Shown: positions 4,578 to 25,327 of the stretch, in pieces
Layout: each line of letters begins with the position of its first letter
Position numbering within the stretch: position 1 is the stretch's first letter
IMG/VR virus record: IMGVR_UViG_3300005095_000026
Location: 1 to 39,804 of that record
Source of the DNA: a virus
DNA length: 39,804 nt
Strand: one strand, 5' to 3'
Position numbers and translations under genes: made by a program
The notes under the pieces: model-generated
What the model was told of the DNA's origin: nothing
Seen by the model: the letters and a program-made list of their open reading frames with translations, nothing else
Databases searched by the model: none

Positions 4578-4802
4578 TCATAAACCTCCTAACTTATTGA
4601 AAAATCTTCTAACTAAATAACTTCTAATATAGCTAGATACAAAAAACATAATAGTCGAAACACTAGCTAACTCCGAACTGCTCAAAAAAACCAATCTTGG
4701 AAATATAAAATAAACAATACACCAGCCAATAATGATACCAATGATCTGATTTGTCAAAACCTCATAATGACTATGCTTTTTAAGTTGCATTTTTATACTC
4801 AC
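4578..4802 (-). CDS. Small two-helix membrane protein (DUF7220-like)
   Basis: The 74-residue protein has two hydrophobic segments (about 21-40 and 45-62) and a basic C terminus (RSYLVRRFFNKL), the pattern of small phage membrane proteins commonly next to terminase genes. It could start at GTG 4802 or at ATG 4790; both lie inside the end of the methyltransferase gene and follow a GGAG. The stop adjoins the terminase small subunit. Function unknown. Confidence 0.65.
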   Translation of the reverse strand: MSIKMQLKKHSHYEVLTNQIIGIIIGWCIVYFIFPRLVFLSSSELASVSTIMFFVSSYIRSYLVRRFFNKLGGL

Positions 4803-5478
4803 TCCAATTCACTTCATGTCCATTTATGATTATGCTATCAATCTCAGTATAATCACAATACCTCTGAACTATTGTTTGTGCATATTTTGGATCTAACTCT
4901 ATCATTCGGCATTGTCTGCCACTATTTTCACAAGCTATAAGAGTCGTGCCAGAGCCTCCAAAAAGATCAAGCACTACATCATCGCCTTTTGTATTGTTTA
5001 GTATCTGGTACTCTATCAACTCTACAGGCTTCATTGTTGGATGCAGGTCGCATACAGTATGTCTGTCAAAATTTATAACAGTAACTTGCTTCCTATCACT
5101 CGCCCAAAGATGACCAGCTCCTTCTTTCCACCCATATAAGCAAGGCTCGTGTTTCCAGTGATAATCTTGTCTGCCTATAACCATTGAGTTTTTATTCCAT
5201 ATTAAGCATTGTCTAACTTTCCATTCGCAATCTCTACAAGCTCCTCTAAAATTATAACCTTCAGAATCAGCATGCCAAATATAAAAAACAGCACCTTTTT
5301 TCATGACCGCATCAGCATTTGAAAAAGCATCTCTTAAGAATGATCTAAAAGCCACATCTTCCATACTGTCGTTTTGTATAGTCATAGCTTTATCGCTTTT
5401 GCCGACATAATCTACATTATAAGGCGGATCGGTGATAAGTTGGTCTGCCAATCCCCCCCCCCATAAGTTTTTCAACAT
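4780..5478 (-). CDS. DNA methyltransferase, catalytic half (out of frame with its ParB half)
   Basis: This part holds an amino-methyltransferase domain. The catalytic TDPPYNV comes first and the AdoMet-binding LDLFGGSGTT comes late, the beta-class order of N6-adenine or N4-cytosine methylases. In the sequence as given it is cut off from its ParB-like N-terminal half by a run of ten G residues (5453-5462). Nine Gs would join them into one 409-residue protein reading MGGGLADQ across the tract. The apparent ATG at 5478 lies upstream of the tract in the wrong frame and is unlikely to be a real start. Role: modification of phage or host DNA. State here: off unless the tract slips. Confidence 0.85.
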   Translation of the reverse strand: MLKNLWGGGLADQLITDPPYNVDYVGKSDKAMTIQNDSMEDVAFRSFLRDAFSNADAVMKKGAVFYIWHADSEGYNFRGACRDCEWKVRQCLIWNKNSMVIGRQDYHWKHEPCLYGWKEGAGHLWASDRKQVTVINFDRHTVCDLHPTMKPVELIEYQILNNTKGDDVVLDLFGGSGTTLIACENSGRQCRMIELDPKYAQTIVQRYCDYTEIDSIIINGHEVNWSEYKNAT

Positions 5479-6010
5479 CTTTTATATTTGTACTATCCCC
5501 ACATAAAAGCTTATGATTTCCAAGTTCTACGATATCGCCACTTTTTATAACTATATTTTTTTCATCAACTTCTGGAATTATATCCGCGGAGCCATCATCC
5601 TCGTCATCTTCAAACTCAATCCCAAAATCAGAAAGTTCATCCTGATTAAACCCTGTCAGTTCAAAATCAAATTCACTCTCTATTAAAAATTCAAACTCTT
5701 GTTTTAATAGTTTCTCATCAAAGCCTGTATTCATAGTGAGTTTATTATGTGCCAATATATAAGCTCTTCTCTTTGTCTCATCCAGATGTAAGAGTTTTAT
5801 AACTGGGATCTCATCCATTTCCATCTTCTTGGCAGCCAAATATCTACCATGTCCTTCAATAATTACATTATTCTCATCTAAGGCAATTGGATCATTGAAA
5901 CCAAACTCCTGTATAGATTTTACAATTTGGTCTATCTGCCAATCTGGGTGCAACTTTGCATTATTTTCAAAGCTTTTGATATTGTCTAGCTTTTCATTTT
6001 CTATCTTCAT
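5417..6010 (-). CDS. ParB-like N-terminal half of the methyltransferase (truncated by frameshift)
   Basis: Starts at ATG 6010 with AAGGAG upstream. Residues about 10-110 form a ParB/sulfiredoxin-type domain (GHGRYLAAKKM motif), common at the N terminus of phage DNA methyltransferases of about 400 residues. After MGGG the frame runs through an unrelated 11-residue tail and stops at 5417, with the true continuation in the next frame. ParB-like domains in such fusions are thought to aid DNA binding; whether this truncated form does anything is unknown. Confidence 0.85.
   Translation of the reverse strand: MKIENEKLDNIKSFENNAKLHPDWQIDQIVKSIQEFGFNDPIALDENNVIIEGHGRYLAAKKMEMDEIPVIKLLHLDETKRRAYILAHNKLTMNTGFDEKLLKQEFEFLIESEFDFELTGFNQDELSDFGIEFEDDEDDGSADIIPEVDEKNIVIKSGDIVELGNHKLLCGDSTNIKDVEKLMGGGIGRPTYHRSAL
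5453..5462 (-). repeat. Poly-G(10) tract, possible phase-variation switch
   Basis: Ten consecutive Cs on the plus strand are ten Gs in the coding strand, exactly at the junction of the ParB-like and methyltransferase domains. G9 restores one open frame; G10 truncates it. Such tracts are the classic slipped-strand switches of Campylobacter and relatives. Confidence 0.8.
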
Positions 6011-9059: not shown

Positions 9060-10166
9060 TTATTTCTCCTTGATTTTTGGTGTTTTTGTAAAAACTGACT
9101 TGATTATATTGTTTGCGACTGCTGTTTTTGACTGTTGTTCTAGGTCTCCGATGTAGAGTTTATAGAACTTGAGCGTGGTGTCTGTGTCCGCATGTCCCAT
9201 CATTCTGCTTACCCAAGTTATATCCATCCCTTTCGATATGAGGATCGAGGCGAACATGTGCCTTGTTACTTGTAGGCTTTTATACTTTATGTTAAGCTGC
9301 TCAAGTATGGGCTTAAAATGATACTTGTTTATGTTTTTGCTAGATGTAAAAGGTTTGTTTTGCCTGTTTGGAAAAACATAGATCTCGCTTGGACATAGTA
9401 GTTTCCACTCCAAAAGAGCAGCTTTTGCCAGGTCCAGCATTGGGATCGTTTTGTATTTTTTAGTTTTATTTTGGAAAATCTTAAATTTTCCATTTTTAAA
9501 GTCTATAGAGTCCCATGATAGTGCTCGGACTTCTCCTGTTCTAAGCCCTGTCATGAGGCTGACTATGAAGTAGACTTTGAACCAGCCTCTTGATGCTTCT
9601 AAAATAGTCTCGATCTCCTCTATTGAATAAGGTTCTTTTCTTTTTGGGGCTGGGGGTTTTATCTGCCTTAGTTTTTCAAAAGGATTATAGGTGATGATAT
9701 CATCATATACTGCTTCTTGCAGTATCCTTTTAAAGGTATTTGTTACACGCCTGACTTTGTCTCTTGAGTGACCTTTGTCCAAAAGTGTGGACTGCCAGTA
9801 TCTCAAGTCTGAGTGAGATATATCTTTTATATCGCTAAATTCAAAAAACGGAATGATAAATCTTTCCAAATAAGATAGTATCTCTTTTTTTGAACTTAAG
9901 TGGGAGGTCGTTTCTATCAAGATCGATCTTGCATAATCACCAAAAATAGTTTTTTTAACTTGCTTGTTGACAATAAGATGCAAAAGAACATCTATCGCAT
10001 GGTCTTCTATGTAAGCGATATTTTTATCGGTCGCTTCTAAATTTGTAGATCTGCGATAGTATGAGATATTGCTTTTTAGTTCTATCTGCCCTGCTCTCTC
10101 AAGCATCTTTTTTGATGCACAGACATAGATGTAGCCATCTCTTATGTAGTAGTGTTTTTTAGCCAT
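9060..10166 (-). CDS. int: Tyrosine-type site-specific integrase
   Basis: The 368-residue recombinase would insert the phage at a host tRNA-Arg gene through the adjacent attP. The C-terminal catalytic domain (about 175-345) shows the first arginine in GLRTGEV (R209), the second arginine in VTRHMFAS (R302), H325 in MMGHADT and the tyrosine nucleophile Y335 in TLKFYKLY. The usual box-II HxxR histidine is replaced by Q (QVTR). The N-terminal 175 residues carry arm-type and core-binding regions. Starts at ATG 10166, overlapping the HTH gene by eight bases. Confidence 0.93.
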   Translation of the reverse strand: MAKKHYYIRDGYIYVCASKKMLERAGQIELKSNISYYRRSTNLEATDKNIAYIEDHAIDVLLHLIVNKQVKKTIFGDYARSILIETTSHLSSKKEILSYLERFIIPFFEFSDIKDISHSDLRYWQSTLLDKGHSRDKVRRVTNTFKRILQEAVYDDIITYNPFEKLRQIKPPAPKRKEPYSIEEIETILEASRGWFKVYFIVSLMTGLRTGEVRALSWDSIDFKNGKFKIFQNKTKKYKTIPMLDLAKAALLEWKLLCPSEIYVFPNRQNKPFTSSKNINKYHFKPILEQLNIKYKSLQVTRHMFASILISKGMDITWVSRMMGHADTDTTLKFYKLYIGDLEQQSKTAVANNIIKSVFTKTPKIKEK

Positions 10167-10440
10167 AGATTCTCCTTAGCTTCAAAACAGCACTTTTATA
10201 CACAAATAGTGTACCACTTATAACTTCAAATTCACTGTCTTTAAAAGTCGTGCCGATCCCTAACTCTGATGAATGCCTTTTTATGTATCTACTTAGAGCC
10301 GCAGAAGAGACTTTAAGGTCTTTTGCGAGAGCTTTTAACGGAAGTTTGTCTGGCATCCATGATAAGAGCTCTTGTTGCTCTTGCTCAAGCTTTGCGACCC
10401 TGTTTTTTAGCTCTAAAAAGTCAGAAGTTGTAATATTCAT
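10159..10440 (-). CDS. HTH protein, candidate excisionase/recombination directionality factor
   Basis: The 93-residue protein has an N-terminal coiled coil (about 8-27) and a helix-turn-helix (LKALAKDLKVSSAALSRYIK, about 35-54). Its end overlaps the integrase start, so the two are translated together; small DNA-binding proteins in that position are often excisionases. Its 3' end contains the inverted repeat 10184-10203. A transcription regulator is the alternative. Confidence 0.6.
   Translation of the reverse strand: MNITTSDFLELKNRVAKLEQEQQELLSWMPDKLPLKALAKDLKVSSAALSRYIKRHSSELGIGTTFKDSEFEVISGTLFVYKSAVLKLRRIYG
10184..10203 (-). repeat. 20-bp inverted repeat, right copy
   Basis: Perfect inverted copy of 8844-8863, lying within the 3' end of the HTH gene just before the integrase start. 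Confidence 0.55.
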
Positions 10441-10568: not shown

Positions 10569-10601
10569 TCGCTATCGCTCCGCACTACAAAAACACAGAG
10601 G
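10569..10601 (-). repeat. VR-flanking block shared by both targets (VP2 copy)
   Basis: These 33 bases are identical to 23803-23835 beside VP1 and absent next to the TR. They encode the last residues and stop of both targets plus 17-18 bases beyond. This is where the initiation-of-mutagenic-homing signal of DGR targets is expected, together with the GC-rich end of the VR. No convincing hairpin is visible. Confidence 0.75.
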
Positions 10602-11373
10602 CACGACCGCCCACATTGTTGCTAGAGTTACTGCGGGCATAGTCCAGAGCAAGAGAGAACCCACCAGCGAGCGAACTGTAGTACCAAAAACCGCCGACTA
10701 GACAAGTGAGATATTTTCCCATAAATGAGCTACCATATATTTTCAAACTTGTAAGCTTCTCTAAGTTCGTATCTTTATAATTTGAAAAATCGTATGCTGA
10801 CTTGCTTGATAGCGTTGTCAGATCTATTTTCTTTTTTAGCTTTTTTATACTTTTCCCATCATGCGTGTATCCCAAAGCAACTTCCCAAAAATTTTTTTTA
10901 AAAAATACCCCATTTTTTTTGCCATTGTGAGAATTAATTTTTCTCTTTTTGTGTTTTTTGGATATAGCAGATAGCATACTATAAATCTTTACTGTTGTTA
11001 GGAAAAAGTCGCTTCCTATGCTTTTAGGGGCATCTATCATATCTGCGAAACGATTATCAATGCAACCATATATATTTGTAACTGGATTTGTGTCAGAGTC
11101 TGTTGTTGCAGGATCGAGATCTCTTTTTGAGACAAATACACCATTTTCATTTGCTCCTGGATATTTTGCTACAAATACAGCGTTTACTTCTTTTTTTGCA
11201 TTTAAAAAAACATTTTTGTATTTTTTAGTTTTAGGGAAACACACATATATACTCCCCAAATTATCTATATAATTTCCATAGTTGTCATGATCTTTTTCGT
11301 ATGTCCCCTCTTGTGTCTTTAAATAATCAGGAAGAAATTCCTCTTCAATAGTGCCTATTCCGTCTTTTGCCAT
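10585..11373 (-). CDS. Second DGR target, variable protein VP2 (C-type-lectin fold)
   Basis: The 262-residue protein is a compact paralogue of VP1: shared DHDNYGNYI (about 28-36), SIGSDFF (118-124), a FWEVA remnant of the FGE-type motif (162-166) and the same C-terminal variable repeat (about 223-258) ending NVGGRASVFL. Compared with VP1 it lacks the first 125 or so residues and a mid-domain cysteine-rich segment of about 45 residues, and that region is lysine-rich. DGR variable proteins use a C-type-lectin-like fold to display randomised residues. Starts at ATG 11373 with AAGGAGG. It lies in the early/integration block, 12.7 kb from the RT, so a virion role is not obvious. Confidence 0.88.
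   Translation of the reverse strand: MAKDGIGTIEEEFLPDYLKTQEGTYEKDHDNYGNYIDNLGSIYVCFPKTKKYKNVFLNAKKEVNAVFVAKYPGANENGVFVSKRDLDPATTDSDTNPVTNIYGCIDNRFADMIDAPKSIGSDFFLTTVKIYSMLSAISKKHKKRKINSHNGKKNGVFFKKNFWEVALGYTHDGKSIKKLKKKIDLTTLSSKSAYDFSNYKDTNLEKLTSLKIYGSSFMGKYLTCLVGGFWYYSSLAGGFSLALDYARSNSSNNVGGRASVFL
10602..10707 (-). repeat. Variable repeat VR2 (remote DGR target)
   Basis: 106 bp aligned without gaps to the TR at 23282-23387. There are 13 differences, every one at a T of the plus strand, that is an adenine of the coding-strand template. This is the signature of adenine-specific mutagenic retrohoming. VR2 and VR1 differ from each other as well, so they were diversified independently. Confidence 0.93.
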
Positions 11374-11383
11374 GTTAGCCTCC

Positions 11384-11638
11384 TTATATAGCCTCTTTTA
11401 GCTCTTTTAGTGTATTTACCTCTGTTAGATCGTATGTGTTTTCAAGTTTCTCAAGCAGCTCTTTTAATAGAGATTTTTTTATCAAAACTTTTTCTTCACC
11501 TTTTATAACTGTTTTCGGTTTTTCTTGACTTAGATCATGAATTGCTGAAAATGGTTTTGGGTTTTCTTTGAATTTCATCTTTTTTATGCCCAGCTCTTCA
11601 CACTTTTTGTCATATGCTTTTTGGTAGTTGTCGCTCAT
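11384..11638 (-). CDS. Hypothetical small charged protein
   Basis: The 84-residue protein starts at ATG 11638, overlapping the previous TGA, and ends 10 bases before VP2. The C-terminal half is a leucine/lysine-rich amphipathic helix. No family recognised. Co-translation with the HTH protein and closeness to VP2 leave open a role as partner of either. Confidence 0.6.
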   Translation of the reverse strand: MSDNYQKAYDKKCEELGIKKMKFKENPKPFSAIHDLSQEKPKTVIKGEEKVLIKKSLLKELLEKLENTYDLTEVNTLKELKEAI

Positions 11639-12840
11639 GCGGTCTCCTTTTGCTTTTGAAAATGTGAGTTTTCTGCTTTTTGATCTCTTGGTTTTCTTAT
11701 TTTGTACCTGCCTAAATATGTTGCAATAGTAGATGTCGTTTTGCCGGTTATCTCTGCGATCTCTTCTATAGATAGCCGCTGCCCTACTCTGTACTCTATA
11801 AGATCATCTTTTGTTAGAGGTTTTCCTCTTTTTTTGAGTTTGTACTGTTTTATGCGGTTATCTAGCAGACCTAATCCTATACCTAGCCTTTTTGCAGTCT
11901 CTTTTCTTGTTAGATCCATAGTGACATAGAGTCTTTTTATATCATCTTTTGAGATCTCTTTTTTATGTGTCATCTTTGCGGCTATGCTGTGTCTGCCTGT
12001 TTTTCTTTTAGCAACTCTTATAGTCGCTTCTTCGAGTCCCTCTAAAGCCCAGAGATATCCTTTGTGCATACCTGCTGTTTTGACTGCTCTTTTTACATTT
12101 TCTCTGTTAAAGCCGTCTTCTTCTGCGGCTGCCTGTGATCTGTATGTTTTTACTGTTTCAAAGGTTACAGGACATATACGGCTCACTCTTTTTGCATGAG
12201 GTTGCTTATGATGAGCTTCTCTCTCTTTTAGAGGCATGACATATCCTTGTCTACCTGCTTTTTGTATCATGTATTTATTTTTTGACAGGTCAAATTCTTT
12301 TATCTTTTCATATATATAATGTTCCGGGATATTCAGCTCTTCGGATATGACTCGCACTGATTTTCTTCTATGCCAATATCTTGAGACTAGATACTCTTTT
12401 GTGAGTATAGCTTCTCTCTCTTCTAATGGTACATAGATGCCGTTTGCCCGTCTGCCTACATCTAAGAGATACTCTTCTCTCAACTTATCGTTTATGGTGT
12501 AGAGATTGTCATGTATATATCTTGCAGATGAGTATGTTAACAATGAGTGCTTTTTTATCTCTTGGTTTATAGTAGCTCTTCTTGAATATGAGTTTATGCC
12601 TGCCAGTGCTTCATCTTCATACTTAAGAAGAAGATAATCAATAAAACTTGTCATGTCGTATCTTAGGTTTTGTTTGTCGAGGATAGCTTGTTGAAGGGCT
12701 TTTATGCTATTCATGGGGACTCTGTTGCCATCTTCTGTGCTAACAATATGTTCCCTGAAAGCTTGAGTATTGTAAAACATACTGGCGTTGCCTAACTCTA
12801 AAAGCTCTGTTGCTTGTGAAATAGTTACATATTGCATCAT
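11635..12840 (-). CDS. Multi-HTH DNA-binding protein with NUMOD-like segment
   Basis: The 401-residue basic protein looks like a string of small DNA-binding units: an N-terminal excisionase/MerR-like segment (about 5-50), an HTH around 155-185 (VISEELNIPEHYIYEKI), a NUMOD1-like segment around 225-265 (AAAEEDGFNRENVKRAV then MHKGYLWAL), and two further HTHs around 300-330 and 345-375. NUMOD and HTH modules are known from the DNA-recognition tails of homing endonucleases, but no HNH or GIY-YIG catalytic motif is visible. It is the first gene after cro in the leftward early transcript. A regulator or replication factor binding an extended site is likely. Starts at ATG 12840 with AAGGAGAG. Confidence 0.65.
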   Translation of the reverse strand: MMQYVTISQATELLELGNASMFYNTQAFREHIVSTEDGNRVPMNSIKALQQAILDKQNLRYDMTSFIDYLLLKYEDEALAGINSYSRRATINQEIKKHSLLTYSSARYIHDNLYTINDKLREEYLLDVGRRANGIYVPLEEREAILTKEYLVSRYWHRRKSVRVISEELNIPEHYIYEKIKEFDLSKNKYMIQKAGRQGYVMPLKEREAHHKQPHAKRVSRICPVTFETVKTYRSQAAAEEDGFNRENVKRAVKTAGMHKGYLWALEGLEEATIRVAKRKTGRHSIAAKMTHKKEISKDDIKRLYVTMDLTRKETAKRLGIGLGLLDNRIKQYKLKKRGKPLTKDDLIEYRVGQRLSIEEIAEITGKTTSTIATYLGRYKIRKPRDQKAENSHFQKQKETA

Positions 12841-12895: not shown

Positions 12896-12976
12896 TTTTT
12901 TAGTTTTTTTAACTTTTACGCTTAATAAAATAATTTACTTATCTAGCAAAAAAGTTAAAATAGTTTAATAAAACTC

Positions 12977-13005
12977 TTGACATGGAGATACTTTTGGAGT
13001 ATAAT
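12977..13005 (+). promoter_or_regulatory. Consensus promoter, rightward
   Basis: TTGACA (12977-12982) and TATAAT (13000-13005) with exactly 17 bases between, a perfect consensus. Start near 13012. It would produce the structured RNA at 13012-13206, antisense to cro if it reads on toward the repressor gene. Confidence 0.75.
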
Positions 13006-13011
13006 TGAAGC

Positions 13012-13206
13012 TGATCATAGCTTGGTTATACTCCAAAAGTATCTTCAAGTCAAGAGTTTCAGGTGTGCGTCAACACGCCTGGCTCTTTCCTTTTAAAATG
13101 CGATATCGGAAAACCTCGAACACGATATCTTTGACACTTCCCATACCTGTACGCTTCTAAACGATGACGGCGATCATCGCAAGAAAAAGTGTCGTCCTCT
13201 CTTTTT
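13012..13206 (+). ncRNA. Candidate structured small RNA
   Basis: Downstream of the perfect rightward promoter there is no ORF of size but several inverted repeats: AGGTGTG/CACGCCT (13061-13067 with 13074-13080), GATATCG/CGATATC (13102-13108 with 13123-13129), and GACACTT/AAGTGTC (13133-13139 with 13187-13193) enclosing the palindrome GCGATCATCGC (13170-13180). A T5 run follows at 13202-13206, as in an intrinsic terminator. It would end at the 3' edge of cro. A short minus-strand peptide is an alternative use of part of this stretch. Confidence 0.45.
13025..13053 (-). promoter_or_regulatory. Near-consensus promoter, leftward
   Basis: On the minus strand TTGACT (13048-13053) and TATAAC (13025-13030) are 17 bases apart. 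It would drive the multi-HTH gene and the following early genes from a start near 13018, inside the opposing promoter's repeat. Confidence 0.65.
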
Positions 13207-13423
13207 AAGCTGTTAGCACCTCTTTTTCGTCTTTTTTTAGATATTCACTTAAATTTTCTAAATCCTCATATGAAATAACTTTGTCGTTTTTTAGCTTTGC
13301 AGCTTGTGAAAAAGTCATCTCTGATGAGCCTCTGATATACTTATATGCCATATTTATAGACACTCCAAGTGTTTTACTTATGCCTTTTGCTAATATAGTT
13401 TTTTTTTCATTTCTAGTATTCAT
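13205..13423 (-). CDS. Cro-like HTH regulator
   Basis: The 72-residue protein contains a compact HTH (ISKTLGVSINMAYKYIRGSS, about 14-33) and lies divergent from the CI-like repressor with an operator between them, the cro position. The ATG at 13423 has no Shine-Dalgarno and would lie only about 10-15 bases from a start site set by the promoter overlapping the operator, so the mRNA may be nearly leaderless. Role: early switch toward lytic growth. Confidence 0.7.
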   Translation of the reverse strand: MNTRNEKKTILAKGISKTLGVSINMAYKYIRGSSEMTFSQAAKLKNDKVISYEDLENLSEYLKKDEKEVLTA

Positions 13424-13440
13424 GAGTGTAATGGTAATAG

Positions 13441-13474
13441 AATTCCCCTTAAAAGATACTTAATTGTGGGAATT
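13441..13474. promoter_or_regulatory. CI/Cro operator, right-hand type (between cro and cI)
   Basis: AATTCCCCTTAA (13441-13452) faces an imperfect copy TTAATTGTGGGAATT (13460-13474). About 50 bp around it, including an adjoining ATGGTAATA, recur inverted at 15173-15225 upstream of the rightward operon. Two matching operators controlling two early promoters fit a lambda-like immunity system. Confidence 0.6.
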
Positions 13475-13526
13475 TTATTCTCTTAATTTTAGATACCATG
13501 CTTTCTATCATGGAGGAGTTAGTGTC

Positions 13527-14237
13527 ATGGATTGCATAGATTATAAAAAACTTGATACTCTTATTGCCGACAAATACACTAGTAATAAGGATTTTATGGG
13601 CGTATTAAACAGTTTAGGCACACTAATAAAAGAAGATGCTATTAAAAAATGGAGGCAAGGGAATAGTGTTCCAAAATCAAACGATTTGCCAAATATTGCA
13701 AAAGCTTTAGATGTAAGTGTTTTAGACCTGTACTGTGACCCTACCTCGCAGAAGGAAAAAATAATCACAGAAGCCATCAAGAATCCATCTATAAAAATAA
13801 AAAACTACCTGATCGAAGCAGGTTATGGAAGCGACAGGATTAAAGAGGTGGATCTTCTTGACGGCTACGGATCAGAGCCGGAAGATGAGTTTGAGGATAG
13901 GATAAGAACTTTTTTTATAGACAAGTATATAGTTGACAAAAAGTACAGAGACAAAAAGATATCTGCACTTGTTATAACGAGCGACAGTATGACTCCTTAT
14001 GTTTATATTGGAGATATAGTTCTTTTTGCTACATTAGGAAGTGGTGCAAATCTAAGTGACGGAAAGTATATAATTGACACTATAGATGGCAAGAAGCTGC
14101 ACAATCTAAAGTTTCATCTTGACGGAAGCGTCACGGTTTCCAGTGAAAATGAAAAATACAGAGCAGAGAGAGTTTCAAGAGCAAGTGAGAACTTTTCCAT
14201 AATCGGTCGCGTGATCGGCAGGATACTCAAAAGCTAA
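13527..14237 (+). CDS. cI: CI-like phage repressor (HTH plus S24/LexA-type peptidase)
   Basis: I place the start at ATG 13527, which follows GGAGG, rather than the upstream frame; this gives 236 residues. Residues about 5-70 form an HTH domain. The C-terminal S24 domain has the nucleophile in TSDSMTPYVYIGD (S154) and the lysine in DGKKLHNLKF (about K190). An AG pair at 98-99 could be the autocleavage site used in RecA-dependent induction. It should hold lysogeny by binding the operators at 13441 and 15183. Confidence 0.9.
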   Translation: MDCIDYKKLDTLIADKYTSNKDFMGVLNSLGTLIKEDAIKKWRQGNSVPKSNDLPNIAKALDVSVLDLYCDPTSQKEKIITEAIKNPSIKIKNYLIEAGYGSDRIKEVDLLDGYGSEPEDEFEDRIRTFFIDKYIVDKKYRDKKISALVITSDSMTPYVYIGDIVLFATLGSGANLSDGKYIIDTIDGKKLHNLKFHLDGSVTVSSENEKYRAERVSRASENFSIIGRVIGRILKS

Positions 14238-14650: not shown

Positions 14651-15082
14651 TTAGTCCTGCTTATTGTAGCACATGATGCCATCATGTTCTATATTGTTGT
14701 ATTGCAGTACCATGCTGTAGCATTTTTCACTTGTTTTCTCTTTCAGGGCTATAACAGCATTTTTGTCGGCTACGCTATCATGCATGGTTAGAGTGTTGCC
14801 ATCCTCGGACACACCATAGATAGAGTTATCTGTTATTGCCATGTCGCTATCCATTGATACAAAATACCCATCAGAGCCAAAAATCACATAAACTATATTC
14901 CCACCATAAATAGTCATGGCCCAAATGGGATTAGTAACTTTTTTATCTCCTAAAAGTACATCACTACCATAATATCCAAGACTATTACTTTGTTTTTGTG
15001 CATTTACTCCTGGTGTCCCTCCTCCTGATGACCCACAGCCCAAAAAAAACAGAACTATTAAAAATAAAGCTATTTTTTTCAT
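14651..15082 (-). CDS. Small lipoprotein, probable lysogenic-conversion moron
   Basis: The 143-residue protein starts MKKIALFLIVLFFLGC, a signal peptide with lipobox FLGC (Cys16), then a glycine/serine linker and a beta-rich domain with two later cysteines. It is on the strand opposite to cI and the accessory operon, and a TATAAT box is present upstream near 15118-15123. Exported lipoproteins beside the repressor are often made in lysogens, for example for superinfection exclusion. That role is inferred only. Confidence 0.65.
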   Translation of the reverse strand: MKKIALFLIVLFFLGCGSSGGGTPGVNAQKQSNSLGYYGSDVLLGDKKVTNPIWAMTIYGGNIVYVIFGSDGYFVSMDSDMAITDNSIYGVSEDGNTLTMHDSVADKNAVIALKEKTSEKCYSMVLQYNNIEHDGIMCYNKQD

Positions 15083-15182
15083 AAATTATCCTTTGTTTTA
15101 AAAATACTTCTTACATTATATATAAAAAAACATATTAAAAAAAATGTGTAAGTTTTACTCAAAACGATAAAAAGGTAATAAT

Positions 15183-15215
15183 ATTCCCCTCATTAAGAAT
15201 ATATTAAGGGGAATT
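15183..15215. promoter_or_regulatory. CI/Cro operator, left-hand type, with rightward promoter
   Basis: ATTCCCCT (15183-15190) and AGGGGAAT (15207-15214) form an inverted pair. The block matches the 13441-13474 operator in inverted orientation, including flanking ATTACCATT. A TTAAGA and a TATATT about 16 bases apart overlap it, placing the accessory operon under repressor control. Confidence 0.6.
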
Positions 15216-15253
15216 ATATTACCATTCACTTATAAAACAAAAAAGGACAAAAT

Positions 15254-21655: not shown

Positions 21656-22206
21656 AAAATTTCCTTTATCTCGTCAATGGTGCTGTTTTTGTCGATGTTT
21701 TTTGCTTTTTGCAAAAACTGTTCTATATCTATGCCTTTTTTTATCATATTCTCAAGTTTGCTTCGTATCTCGTTTAACAATATGACATAATCAGCTGCTA
21801 CAGATTTAGCCTGTTCGTTTGCGTTTATGATCGCTTCGTTTGTAGCTGTGTCATATTTCCCCTGTTTTGCAAATTGATACATATACTCATAGATCTCATT
21901 TTGCACATCTATGTACTTATCAGTCAAACTTTGCTTGTCCGCGAGCATCTCTTTTAGCCCTTCTGCTTTTTCTACAAAAAGAGTTTGAAGCTTTGACATT
22001 TCGTATTTAAACTGATCGCTCTCTTTTATAAGCTCTGTAAATTCATCTGCGGTTATCTCTTTACCATTTTTTTGCAGTGCTAAAAGTGCATAAAACTCCT
22101 CGTTTGAAGCATTGCAAACTACTGCTGCACCTGTGCTGTATTCTTTTGTAAAAGGCTCTTCAAACTGCTTGTTTAAAAACCCTGTAAAACTTATATAGCG
22201 ATACAT
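21652..22206 (-). CDS. Hypothetical helical protein coupled to the DGR reverse transcriptase
   Basis: The 184-residue protein starts at ATG 22206 inside the end of the RT gene (16-base overlap) with AAGGAAG upstream. The last two thirds form long helices (about 60-175). No family recognised. It could be a tail-fibre chaperone for the variable protein or an extra DGR component; only the coupling supports this. Confidence 0.6.
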   Translation of the reverse strand: MYRYISFTGFLNKQFEEPFTKEYSTGAAVVCNASNEEFYALLALQKNGKEITADEFTELIKESDQFKYEMSKLQTLFVEKAEGLKEMLADKQSLTDKYIDVQNEIYEYMYQFAKQGKYDTATNEAIINANEQAKSVAADYVILLNEIRSKLENMIKKGIDIEQFLQKAKNIDKNSTIDEIKEIF

Positions 22207-23420
22207 AAATCTTCCTTTTTTAATATATTTTGATAGTGTGGTATAGTTGCTGTATTTTTAGCATGTTCCAAAAGAGAAGTTATGGACTCTCTATTTTTTA
22301 ATTTAACTGCTTTTTTAAACTTATACATGGAGTGTTTTCTAACAAATTTTTTACTCTTCCATGTGCGATATCCGACAAAATTTATACCACGCTTGATCTT
22401 TGCTATAGTCCAATGTGAAAGTTCTAAATTTAATCTTTCTTTTATGAGCTTTTCTAAGGTGTCTTTGTGTTTTTTTGCTTCGTTTAGTGTTAAGCCGATA
22501 AGTATAAAATCATCGACATATCTCACATAGGAGTTCACTTTCAGCACTCTTTTAACAAAGTGGTCAGTTTCATTCATGTAGATAGAAGCGTAAATTTGGC
22601 TTAAAAGATTTCCTATCGGTATGCCTGTGTCTCCATCCATCTTAGCAAATTCACACATTAATTCTACAAACTTTTCATCTTTGATCTTTTTCTTAAAAAG
22701 TCCTCTTAAAATATCTCTATCTATGCTGTAAAAATACTTTTTTATGTCAAGTTTTAGATAGTAAAGCTCTCCGCTGTACTTTCTCATCTCTTTTTGAGTA
22801 TATCTACTGGCTTTATGTGTACCTTTGCCTTTTCTACAAGCATATGCATGATCAATGAAACTTTTGTCAAATATTTCATAAATTTCTTTATAGATAGCGT
22901 GTTGCACTACCAGGTCTCTAAAATGAGGAGCATTAATGACTCTTTTTTTAGGTTCATATACTTCAAATTGTCGATAAGGTTTAGGTTTGTAAGTACCATC
23001 TTTTAATTCGTCATGCAAGTCTGCTAAATTTTGCCCTAAATTTATCTCAAACTCGTAAGTGTGCGGCTTTTTTCTTTTGCCTTTTCGTGCTATCAGATAC
23101 GCTTTGTGAAGATTTTCTAATGTAAAAGTTTTATTATATAAATTTCCAACTCTTTTGGAGGTGCTTTGATTTTTGACATTGCTACTCAAAAAAGCACCTT
23201 GATTGATTTCGCTTATCGCAGGACAGCATATCCCTCTATTGCCAGTATTATCATTTGATATTTCAGGATTGGCTATACAGTCACGACCGCCCACATTGTT
23301 GTTAGAGTTACTGCGGTTATTGTTCAGATTAAGAGTGAACCCACCAGCGATCGAACTGTTGTTCCAATTACCGCCGACTAGACAAGTATGCATGTCAATA
23401 TACTGCCCTTGATTTCTCAC
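22191..23420 (-). CDS. DGR reverse transcriptase
   Basis: Copies TR RNA into adenine-mutagenised cDNA that replaces the VRs. RT motifs are clear: LKLDIKKYFYSID (catalytic Asp about 225), the DGR-typical IPIGNLLSQIYAS (about 267-279) and YVDDF (about 301-305). Start choice is unusual. GTG 23420 has AAAGGGG five bases upstream and overlaps the avd stop (GTGA), but translation from it runs in frame through the TR, giving 409 residues. TTG 23189 with AAGGTG seven bases upstream gives the 332 residues usual for the family. A TTG at 23447 has no ribosome site. The family's RTs normally start after the TR. Confidence 0.93.
   Translation of the reverse strand: MRNQGQYIDMHTCLVGGNWNNSSIAGGFTLNLNNNRSNSNNNVGGRDCIANPEISNDNTGNRGICCPAISEINQGAFLSSNVKNQSTSKRVGNLYNKTFTLENLHKAYLIARKGKRKKPHTYEFEINLGQNLADLHDELKDGTYKPKPYRQFEVYEPKKRVINAPHFRDLVVQHAIYKEIYEIFDKSFIDHAYACRKGKGTHKASRYTQKEMRKYSGELYYLKLDIKKYFYSIDRDILRGLFKKKIKDEKFVELMCEFAKMDGDTGIPIGNLLSQIYASIYMNETDHFVKRVLKVNSYVRYVDDFILIGLTLNEAKKHKDTLEKLIKERLNLELSHWTIAKIKRGINFVGYRTWKSKKFVRKHSMYKFKKAVKLKNRESITSLLEHAKNTATIPHYQNILKKEDLCIAI
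23282..23387 (-). repeat. DGR template repeat (TR)
   Basis: 106 bp between avd and the RT catalytic region, near-identical to the ends of VP1 and VP2. It holds 28 adenines on the coding strand, many in AAC and AAT codons; 20 of the 28 differ in at least one VR. It lacks the conserved block that follows each VR, diverging right after GGGCGGTCGTG. It is in the same reading phase as the RT frame. Confidence 0.95.
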
Positions 23421-23803
23421 ATTTTCCCCTTTATCTTTTGAATCCAAGAGCCAATCATTCGACCGATTTCATCAACGAGTTTAGAGATAGCGAGATATCT
23501 GTGTTTAGGCTTTACAGTTGCATCGGTCTTGCCGTTTTTGTATGCAAAATACCCAAGTTCATTTGCGAGATACAGCTGCATACGCAACTTCTCATGCGAA
23601 ATATCAAGATCGCTCAATGTTGTTTTTTTATAGTATTTTTTATGACATTCAGTTATTAAATCATAAACATGATACGCATTTTGTCGTATCTGCAACGCCA
23701 AAGCATACTTTTCGTGCTTTGGAAAATGGTTTAAATATATATTTAATAATTTTATCATTTCCATGTACTTCCTATTAAGAATCACTTCGTGCTTCTGTGC
23801 CAT
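23417..23803 (-). CDS. avd: DGR accessory variability determinant (Avd)
   Basis: The 128-residue basic, all-helical protein fits the Avd four-helix bundle that forms a pentamer, binds RT and TR RNA and is needed for mutagenic retrotransposition. It lies in the standard position between the VR-bearing gene and TR/RT. ATG 23803 follows the VP1 stop by 15 bases, and its GGAG ribosome site lies within the block shared with the remote VR2. Its stop overlaps the possible GTG start of the RT frame. Confidence 0.85.
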   Translation of the reverse strand: MAQKHEVILNRKYMEMIKLLNIYLNHFPKHEKYALALQIRQNAYHVYDLITECHKKYYKKTTLSDLDISHEKLRMQLYLANELGYFAYKNGKTDATVKPKHRYLAISKLVDEIGRMIGSWIQKIKGKM

Positions 23804-23835
23804 CGCTATCGCTCCGCACTACAAAAACACAGAGG
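23803..23835 (-). repeat. VR-flanking block shared by both targets (VP1 copy)
   Basis: 33 bases identical to 10569-10601: last codons and stop of VP1, then the avd ribosome-binding region. Absent beside the TR, as expected for a target-only homing signal. Confidence 0.75.
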
Positions 23836-25327
23836 CACGACCGCCCACAGTGTGGCCAGAGTTACCGCGGGAATTGTACAGATAAAGAGTGAACCCACCA
23901 GCGAGCGAACCGCTGCTCCAATTACCGCCGACTAGACAAGTCATATCTGTTCTTAAATATCTGTAAATACCATCATTCCCAAATTCTGTAGTACCGCCGC
24001 TGCTCACGCCAGTTGCTGCAGGAATAGATAAAGCAGTTCTTTTGTAGCTTATAGAGTTTTTATCGTTACTAAATTCAAAAACTTGATTTGCTCCATTCCC
24101 TAATCTTATCCAACCATTGTTGTCACTAACCAGGTCAGATATGTCGATATCATCATAGTTGTTGTAGTCGTAAGCACTATCTTCTGTTAAAGTTGCTATA
24201 TCTACAGACTCTTTTAATATTTTGAAATTTGAGCTGTCTCTGGTAAAGCCGCTTGCGACTTCCCACATGTTTCCATTCAGATCAGCGACTCCACAGTTTT
24301 GACCATTATGTGTTGTTTTTGCAAAGTTTGTGGCTGACCCTGTTTTTCCACAATTACTGTATCCCGAAGCTTCGTAAACAACAGAGTTATCGTTTGTGTC
24401 TTTTAGTGCGTTGTTATTGCAGCCTTTTGGTAAGTATGGTGCGACATCTTTAAAAGCACATGTTGCAATCGTTCCTGCGTCCGCATGTGCTTTCGCTAAC
24501 CGCATCAGCATCGAGTAAACAAAGATCGGAGTTAAGAAAAAATCATTTCCTAAACTTTTCGCAGCGGTATATAATTCATCGTATCTATTCTCACTACATC
24601 CATTAATATTTGCGACTGGATTATGATCGGCGTGGGTAGAAACTGGATCTCTGCTTTTTATACTTGCGAAGTAACCGTTATTATTAGATCCTTGATATTT
24701 TGAAACAAATATTCCTGCTTTTTCCACTCCTCCATTAAGAAAAGCTCTTTCTATCACATAGCCATCTTTTTTATGAGTACTAATATAGTATGTATTTCCT
24801 ATAATTTTAAAATAATATTTAGGGATAAAAACAAATACGGATCCGGACATTGGATGGATATAATTGCCGTAGTTATCATGATCGACCTGATAAGTTCCTG
24901 CCATCGACACTAAATAACTAGGGAGATCATGCTCTGGGCAAATGCCTACTCCAAAGCCGATCTTTCCAGTTATCCCGATATCATAGTATTTGACACCTTG
25001 GATTTTTTCATCTATCTCGTCCATAGAATATGTTGCTTCTTCAGGGATAACTACACTCTCCATCACCTCTATCTTGTCATTTATCTCTATTAAAGCGTTA
25101 TTTGCAGCATTGTTAACGATGTCCGCGGCTGAAGAGACTTCATCTATGAGTGTATTCGCCTCTTCTTTGAAAATATTCAGCTTCGCTATAAAATCTACGA
25201 TATCTTGCACAAAAGTCGGTATCCATAGCATAAAGCTGTTTCTTTGCTGTAGCCATTCTGGGGTATCGCTTTTTGCATCAACTGGCGGCGGCGGAGTTAA
25301 GTTTTGATCTATATCTGATATTGCCAT
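23819..25327 (-). CDS. DGR variable protein VP1, tail receptor-binding protein
   Basis: The 502-residue protein carries an N-terminal tail-attachment region with helices (about 25-110), then a C-type-lectin domain of the formylglycine-generating-enzyme type with the signature DLNGNMWEVASGF (about 349-361), and ends in the variable repeat (about 463-498) with NTVGGRASVFL-like conserved edge. This is the design of the Bordetella phage Mtd and related proteins, where diversified residues form the ligand surface. It directly follows the tail gene 25328-26176 and begins the DGR cluster. Many cysteines in the middle may form disulfides or bind metal. Confidence 0.9.
   Translation of the reverse strand: MAISDIDQNLTPPPPVDAKSDTPEWLQQRNSFMLWIPTFVQDIVDFIAKLNIFKEEANTLIDEVSSAADIVNNAANNALIEINDKIEVMESVVIPEEATYSMDEIDEKIQGVKYYDIGITGKIGFGVGICPEHDLPSYLVSMAGTYQVDHDNYGNYIHPMSGSVFVFIPKYYFKIIGNTYYISTHKKDGYVIERAFLNGGVEKAGIFVSKYQGSNNNGYFASIKSRDPVSTHADHNPVANINGCSENRYDELYTAAKSLGNDFFLTPIFVYSMLMRLAKAHADAGTIATCAFKDVAPYLPKGCNNNALKDTNDNSVVYEASGYSNCGKTGSATNFAKTTHNGQNCGVADLNGNMWEVASGFTRDSSNFKILKESVDIATLTEDSAYDYNNYDDIDISDLVSDNNGWIRLGNGANQVFEFSNDKNSISYKRTALSIPAATGVSSGGTTEFGNDGIYRYLRTDMTCLVGGNWSSGSLAGGFTLYLYNSRGNSGHTVGGRASVFL
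23836..23941 (-). repeat. Variable repeat VR1 (local DGR target)
   Basis: 106 bp aligned without gaps to the TR with 13 differences, all at template adenines. The variable codons replace Asn by Ser, Tyr, Gly, His or Thr and Ile by Leu, while the GGFTL and VGGR framework is kept. Confidence 0.95.

Follow-up and report, generated by a model that had tools for sequence, protein, structure and literature searches.

A diversity-generating retroelement with a predicted tail target and a remote second target near the early and lysogeny genes of a Campylobacterota-type temperate phage

The window analyzed here is the whole 39,804-nucleotide stretch of the IMG/VR virus record IMGVR_UViG_3300005095_000026 (positions 1 to 39,804), and a 43-nt terminal repeat marks this phage contig as circular. 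Terminase, portal, tape measure, holin and endolysin genes are present. The phage is temperate, as it encodes a tyrosine integrase (9060..10166, minus strand; PF00589, 2.3e-23) and an S24 (CI-type) repressor (13464..14237, plus strand; PF00717, 5.7e-10; phrog_4). A Cro-like helix-turn-helix (HTH) protein, assigned from weak HTH matches and its position, is encoded divergently from CI at 13205..13423 (minus strand). A predicted repressor operator, GGTAATAGAATTCCCC, was located at 13433..13448 with further copies at 15174-15189 and 15208-15223, which amounts to three exact sites against 0.09 expected with up to two mismatches allowed. Close relatives of the phage were found in Helicobacteraceae and Sulfurovaceae metagenome-assembled genomes (MAGs; Campylobacterota). 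These host-MAG relatives, the integrase and the S24 repressor agree with the preliminary description of a two-target diversity-generating retroelement (DGR) in a Campylobacterota-type temperate phage. No DNA-level relatives of the window were found among GenBank phages, and an Rfam search returned no matches.

The DGR cassette lies on the minus strand in the order VP1-VR1-avd-TR-RT, as originally proposed. The span first assigned to the element, 22191-25327, does cover this complete cassette but misses a second target, VP2, at 10585-11373. The reverse transcriptase (RT) open reading frame (22191..23447, minus strand, 418 codons) contains the reported IGNLLSQ and YVDD motifs and matches RVT_1 (4.5e-18). 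Profile comparison placed it with phrog_1423 (1.7e-112), and its nearest solved relative is the RT of Bordetella phage BPP-1 (8UB7, 2.2e-57), with 198 bits against 80 for the next group II RT. Assignment as a retron or group II type was rejected on this lead of more than 100 bits. The Avd accessory protein is encoded at 23417..23803 (minus strand; bAvd PF22296, 3.3e-17; phrog_3206 'Avd protein of DGR', 1.3e-20). The RT domain occupies about 22191-23207, and the front of the RT open reading frame runs through TR. Because codon-position bias in the TR-RT spacer is weak (0.21/0.26/0.30), TR is probably template RNA and not the RT N-terminus; translation of TR as part of the RT is not claimed, even if the frame through TR is open in many relatives and one PHROG profile spans TR.

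The repeats were recomputed. Between TR at 23282-23387 and each of VR1 and VR2 there are 13 differences, all 26 of them at template-strand adenines, and 28 of the 106 nt of TR are adenines, both exactly as first counted by eye; the hypergeometric probability of this A-only pattern is 2.4e-9 per VR. The repeats could be lengthened to 109 nt, all on the minus strand: TR at 23279..23387, VR1 at 23833..23941 (the last ~35 codons of VP1) and VR2 at 10599..10707 (the last ~35 codons of VP2). Each VR then differs from TR at 14 positions, again all at adenines (28/28), the extra difference being the fixed one between IMH and IMH*. TR ends in IMH* (GGCGGTCGTGACTG) and VR1 in IMH (GGCGGTCGTGCCTC); across the window and the related locus L002, all four VRs have GCCTC and both TRs have GACTG. 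Nearly all TR adenines (27 of 28) occupy the first or second codon position when read in the target frame. A further motif, GAGCGATAGCGA, trails both VRs of the window, directly past the stop codon, as well as VRs of relatives, and is absent after TR; in the window its copies lie at 23803..23814, overlapping the start of avd, and at 10569..10580 (both minus strand). TR/VR differences are mostly at adenines in related loci too; the repeat pair of locus L013, with no clear A bias, was left out of the evidence. An RVT_1 match on its own is generic, and a retron or group II RT might in principle sit beside repeats produced by chance or gene conversion. Given A-only substitutions in the window and most related loci, the presence of Avd, and an RT nearest to that of BPP-1, the probability of this reading is negligible. 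Judged from its sequence, the window carries a complete, active BPP-1-type DGR.

Seven positions, none of them an A in either sequence, separate the TR of the window from that of L002. At each of the seven, VR2 agrees with the TR of its own locus, as VR1 does wherever it is covered, which indicates that both VRs are repeatedly rewritten from TR. L002 also overlaps contig 3300028042_000038 from the same metagenome by 136 nt with two mismatches, both within VR2 at TR adenines, while the rest of the flank is identical. As VR2 of these two contigs differs only at template adenines, it appears to be in the course of being rewritten, and these comparisons indicate that mutagenic retrohoming is ongoing.

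VP1, the first target (23819..25327, minus strand), is a predicted 502-aa tail variable protein, assigned from an AlphaFold model, a Foldseek search and its neighbors. It consists of an N-terminal helical adaptor (residues 1-110) and a C-lectin-type domain. The model had a pTM of 0.71 with the VR portion poorly predicted, and its best Foldseek match was the DGR variable protein TaqVP (5VF4, E 5.6e-12), which was also matched by a target profile search (4.2e-6). VP1 adjoins tail genes, the tape measure gene among them. Its DGR C-lectin fold and its place in the tail module make receptor retargeting the natural reading, and VP1 is a predicted tail-tip C-lectin protein whose diversification most likely changes receptor binding. 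The retargeting of host attachment put forward in the preliminary description thus suits VP1, but it does not extend simply to VP2.

VP2, the second target (10585..11373, minus strand), is a free-standing 262-aa paralogue of VP1, as indicated by alignment and fold. It is located 12.7 kb away, between the early regulators and the integrase. Its gene run (all minus strand) begins with a 401-aa HTH/sigma-region-4-like regulator (11635..12840; Sigma70_r4_2, 1.9e-6), followed by a small protein directly upstream of VP2 (11384..11638) with a homologue upstream of VP2 in L002. Directly after VP2, in an excisionase-like position, is a small HTH protein (10159..10440; weak HTH match) with a homologue at the same place in locus L129. 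Since the run has its own inverted-repeat promoter region upstream, the timing of VP2 expression in the window is a guess. No convincing promoter or terminator was detected around VP2, and the idea of VP2 as an autonomously transcribed moron, with promoter and terminator of its own, was dropped on this ground and on the overlap of VP2 with CII in the relative G004. A PADLOC search for defense genes among VP2 and its neighbors returned HTH matches only.

Relative to its L002 orthologue, VP2 has a pS of 0.75 and a pN of 0.34, and the third codon position is the one that varies most, a pattern by which VP2 is under purifying selection. Its charge differs, basic and lysine-rich in the window versus acidic in L002, so its biochemical character is not conserved. 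A shorter, fast-evolving and, in the window, lysine-rich protein is what might be expected of a functionless, decaying VP1 duplicate in which DGR overwriting persists only via the retained IMH. This is very improbable given the pS and pN values, a VR2 that still tracks TR, and an open reading frame that is intact in four phages and recurs in similar genomic places; outright pseudogene decay was ruled out by the codon-position bias and this recurrence.

The same kind of remote VP2 layout was observed in three relatives, L002/G414, G004 and G415. The gene order is CI, Cro-like, a small gene, VP2, HTH and integrase in L002/G414, and the SSB side, VP2, HTH and integrase in G415, where VP2 is on the strand opposite to RT and 15 of 16 VR2 differences are at A. 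In G004 the order is CI, Cro, CII (PF06892), VP2 overlapping the CII stop codon, and then replication genes; an unambiguous Cro-CII-VP2 run was seen in G004 only. A VP2-only query against viral contigs gave no matches, and queries with the VP2 alignment and G004 VP2 recovered mainly VP1s plus one further VP2, that of G415. On the tree, VP2 must have arisen twice from tail VPs, and the VP1 partners of the G004/G415 VP2 clade (support 100/100) are drawn from different clades. This two-origin pattern could be mimicked if VP1 and VP2 had exchanged sequence by gene conversion in the lineage of the window.

VP2 could still be packaged along with VP1, as a second virion lectin that binds receptors but is encoded outside the tail module. 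Both targets would then serve attachment, and VP2 may join VP1 in mixed trimers or occupy another part of the virion. VP2 does share the fold family of VP1 and TaqVP (model pTM 0.77, VR portion poorly predicted; best Foldseek match TaqVP, 1.3e-6), G004 VP2 weakly matches tail-protein PHROGs, and most targets of viral DGRs at large are tail proteins (PMC8144416). In alignment with VP1, however, VP2 lacks both the N-terminal adaptor of tail VPs and their ~45-aa insert, in four phages its neighbors are CI/Cro/CII, HTH or integrase genes, and in G004 it overlaps the CII stop codon. A role in the virion is accordingly the less probable reading, though a serious one.

The arrangement that we consider likely is a BPP-1-type DGR in which VP1 serves receptor binding and VP2 is an early, cytoplasmic variable binder. 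By analogy with BPP-1, TR RNA would be copied by RT and Avd into cDNA randomized at template adenines, and this cDNA would replace the homologous VR at the 3' end of either target gene. VP2 is a copy of the VP1 binding domain without the tail adaptor, relocated into the early/lysogeny-control gene run near CI/Cro and the integrase, and it would be made early in infection or when the prophage is established or induced. By hydropathy VP2 has neither a signal peptide nor a membrane segment, so the protein would remain cytoplasmic and bind a variable partner, for example a host defense or takeover target or a rival phage, instead of acting as a receptor-binding tail tip. For the early timing and intracellular role taken separately, the balance tips slightly in favor. 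The proximity of VP2 to the integrase and repressor, and a gene for a predicted lipoprotein within the immunity region of the window (14651-15082), would also fit a lysogenic-conversion gene expressed from the prophage and aiding the lysogen, for example as a variable adhesin, either surface-bound or secreted, or as a factor in superinfection exclusion. That role is improbable for a protein with neither of these export features, and G004 VP2 is part of a Cro-CII run that CI would silence in a lysogen.

The element resembles that of BPP-1 (mtd-avd-TR-brt) in gene order, Avd, A-specific TR-to-VR transfer, a VR at the C-terminal end of a (here predicted) C-lectin tail protein, and RT family. It differs in having a remote, adaptor-less second target in the early/lysogeny region and a VP fold nearer TaqVP than Mtd. 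The preliminary description took a two-target DGR in a Campylobacterota-type temperate phage to be much less familiar than DGRs at large. Two targets are not rare in themselves: several VRs occur in 28.6% of DGRs (PMC6642488), and two-target DGR phages have been described (PMC10743442, PMC8143477, PMC8008677). Quimbyvirus is a precedent for a non-structural second target, located there in a defense/counter-defense island on the other strand (PMC8008677); in the window and its relatives the second target instead has CI/Cro/CII, HTH and integrase genes as neighbors, and it is a shortened paralogue of the tail target. The Bacuni phages of Bacteroides uniformis likewise have a single TR with one adjacent and one distant VR, but both of their targets are described as fimbrial-tip-like adhesins (PMC8143477), unlike those of the window. 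The nd4/nd12 phages also have one TR and two C-lectin targets (tentaclins), but within one DGR cassette and with differing topologies, whereas VP2 is a remote paralogue of VP1; the purpose of mutating two different genes was called unclear by their authors (PMC10743442). A remote second VR was also found in the Faecalibacterium phages FP_Lagaffe and FP_Toutatis and in Dulem virus 37, likewise outside the structural module, among recombination/replication genes or in the region towards the repressor and integrase. The hosts and VP sequences of these three are unrelated to those of the window. For Lagaffe, the available part of the published account describes a single putative DGR target (PMC5883640).

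A 10-kb scan around RT, the DGRScan default (per PMC8008677), misses such remote targets. We tentatively suggest that recruitment of a second target into the early/lysogeny-control region may be a recurrent event among phage DGRs, with at least two origins from Campylobacterota-phage tail targets and independently in gut Firmicutes phages, yielding hypermutated intracellular proteins for anti-defense, takeover or inter-phage conflict that are distinct from receptor-binding proteins. If so, the role of the second DGR target (PMC10743442) would become testable via a small, sharply bounded gene.

Host-range switching is the role taught for phage DGRs. Were a second target in the early/lysogeny region routine, hypermutation would also serve intracellular conflict or the lysogeny decision.

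The window carries a genuine, active diversity-generating retroelement (DGR), as such of a known kind. Alignment of the template repeat (TR, 23282-23387) with the variable repeats VR1 (23836-23941, ending the first target gene, VP1, minus strand 23819-25327) and VR2 (10602-10707, ending its paralogue VP2) reproduced to the base the 13 + 13 differences reported in the preliminary description, all on template-strand adenines, and a recount again gave 28 adenines in the 106-nt TR. The adenine-only pattern has p = 2.4e-9 per VR. The TR-VR match reaches 109 nt, with 14 differences per VR, every one at an adenine; the additional difference is the fixed one between the end motifs of VR and TR (IMH and IMH*). 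Codon positions 1 or 2 of the target frame hold 27 of the 28 TR adenines, the placement expected of a template shaped for amino-acid variation. Where viral contigs hold a relative of the reverse transcriptase (RT) together with a TR/VR pair, most show the same adenine bias. The RT matches the RVT_1 domain and phrog_1423 ('Reverse transcriptase'), is 40% identical to BPP-1 brt (tblastn), and among solved structures is by far closest to 8UB7, the BPP-1 RT (2.2e-57, 198 bits; a group II RT scores 80 bits). Avd matches bAvd and the PHROG family 'Avd protein of DGR'. Gene callers fuse the TR to the RT because the RT frame is open through the TR and spacer (22191-23447); it is also open in many relatives, and one PHROG profile takes in this read-through region.

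The window is a single circular virus record with a 43-nt end repeat, encoding terminase, portal, capsid, tape measure, holin and endolysin. The earlier assignment to a Campylobacterota temperate phage is supported, because an integrase and an S24 repressor are also encoded and the nearest RTs among cellular genomes lie in Helicobacteraceae and Sulfurovaceae MAGs. Overlapping ORFs at 5417-6010 and 4780-5478, the latter matching the second half of phrog_498 only, look like one ParB-like/DNA methyltransferase gene broken by a frameshift or assembly error (4780-6010).

Comparison of the repeats shows that a single TR supplies two genes by adenine-specific transfer, which is ongoing in both. The TRs of the window and of a related phage fragment, L002 (RT 88% identical), differ at seven positions, non-adenine in both. 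At all seven, each phage's VR2 has the base of its own TR, as does VR1 at every covered position: both VRs are rewritten in concert from the TR. Two contigs of the L002 metagenome that overlap in VR2 differ at two sites, both template adenines, and are identical over the remainder of 136 nt. Of these two, the L002 contig begins within VR1 and 3300028042_000038 within VR2, places where VR diversity would be expected to interrupt an assembly. By analogy with BPP-1, an RNA template would be copied by RT-Avd, with the IMH directing homing. The motif GAGCGATAGCGA (or AAGCGATAGCGA) lies just past the stop codon at both VRs of the window and of L002, at the VP2 VR of the relative G415, and at VRs of the related loci L007, L009 and L148; it was not found after the TR. 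Occurrences of the GAGCGATAGCGA-type 12-mer directly after the VR stop lie at 23803-23814 and 10569-10580, and also in L002, L152, L007, L009 and L148. It is a candidate cis element for retrohoming, its position comparable to that of the known hairpin downstream of the BPP-1 VR.

The VP1 and VP2 family profile matches TaqVP (5VF4), a DGR variable protein of Thermus, which is also the top Foldseek match of the AlphaFold models (VP1, 5.6e-12; VP2, 1.3e-6); BPP-1 Mtd comes next and is not significant. Each model predicts its VR part with low confidence. The VP2-VP1 alignment begins at about VP1 residue 118, and VP2 is without the N-terminal helical adaptor of VP1 and an insert of about 45 residues. 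No signal peptide or membrane segment was evident in VP2 by hydropathy. Outside the VR, the window and L002 VP2 genes differ most at third positions (pS 0.75, pN 0.34).

VP2 (10585-11373, minus strand) lies 12.7 kb from the DGR, its start preceded by a strong AGGAGG ribosome site. It belongs to a leftward run of a 401-residue HTH regulator, an 84-residue protein, VP2, a small HTH protein, integrase and replication genes, directly upstream of which are the S24 repressor gene CI (13464-14237, plus strand) and a Cro-like gene (13205-13423, minus strand). Upstream of the run, a near-perfect inverted repeat (12973-13061; arms of about 40 nt, single-strand fold -55.5 kcal/mol) contains two predicted sigma70-like promoters facing each other and is possibly a switch or small RNA; a terminator-like hairpin lies at 13059-13082. 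Three exact copies of GGTAATANNATTCCCC (13433-13448, 15174-15189 and 15208-15223), located where CI and Cro diverge and ahead of the early genes that run rightward, are likely repressor operators. Also within the immunity region, a predicted lipoprotein (14651-15082; lipobox-like start MKKIALFLIVLFFLGCGSS) is a candidate superinfection-exclusion or lysogenic conversion protein.

There is good evidence that VP2 recurs. In L002 it adjoins the Cro-like and S24 CI genes, and 3300028042_000038, from the same metagenome, overlaps the L002 end in VR2 and continues into the same HTH and integrase genes. The relative G004 (IMG 2616644881) has CI and then Cro-CII-VP2 leading to replication genes, with VP2 overlapping the CII stop; 18 of its 19 VR2 differences are at adenines. 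VP2 of G415 (62% identical to that of G004; 15/16 VR2 differences at adenines) lies between SSB-side genes and HTH/integrase. VP2 is optional, since G002 (30 kb, early region covered) has none. In a tree computed without the VR, the window and L002 VP2 group beside window VP1 (100/99), and the G004 and G415 VP2 pair (100/100) falls inside another VP1 group; two VP2 changes are required because these strongly supported branches force them. The VP1s of G004 and G415 belong to different groups, and therefore that VP2 pair was inherited as its own gene. Gene conversion could mimic a separate VP2 origin in the window lineage.

DGRs with several VRs are common, making up 28.6% of 948 (PMC6642488), and two-target phage DGRs are already described (PMC10743442, PMC8143477). 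One phage group, whose second target is non-structural and encoded in a defence island, was termed without precedent in 2021 (PMC8008677). Among 13 DGR phage records scanned, several covered in part, three carry a distant VR that is not part of the structural module: Faecalibacterium phage Lagaffe, in an FGE-domain gene that overlaps one for an exonuclease (L136:32602-32706); Faecalibacterium phage Toutatis, among replication-side genes (L138:7207-7310, record 11932-12035); and, more weakly (16/20 differences at adenines), Dulem virus 37, between lysis genes and integrase (L144:35257-35368). No mention of the second Lagaffe VR was found in the passages of PMC5883640 consulted; with limited literature coverage, the lack of a published account is weak evidence. 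In general, viral DGR targets are classed mostly as tail proteins (PMC8144416). VP1 is most likely a tail-tip receptor binder, and that VP2 is likewise carried on the virion, as a lectin, seems rather improbable. For VP2 the functional argument is positional: we lean slightly towards a variable binder that is made early, stays in the cytoplasm and takes part in conflict with the host or with other phages during infection, establishment or induction. What is new in this DGR is the location and nature of its second target.
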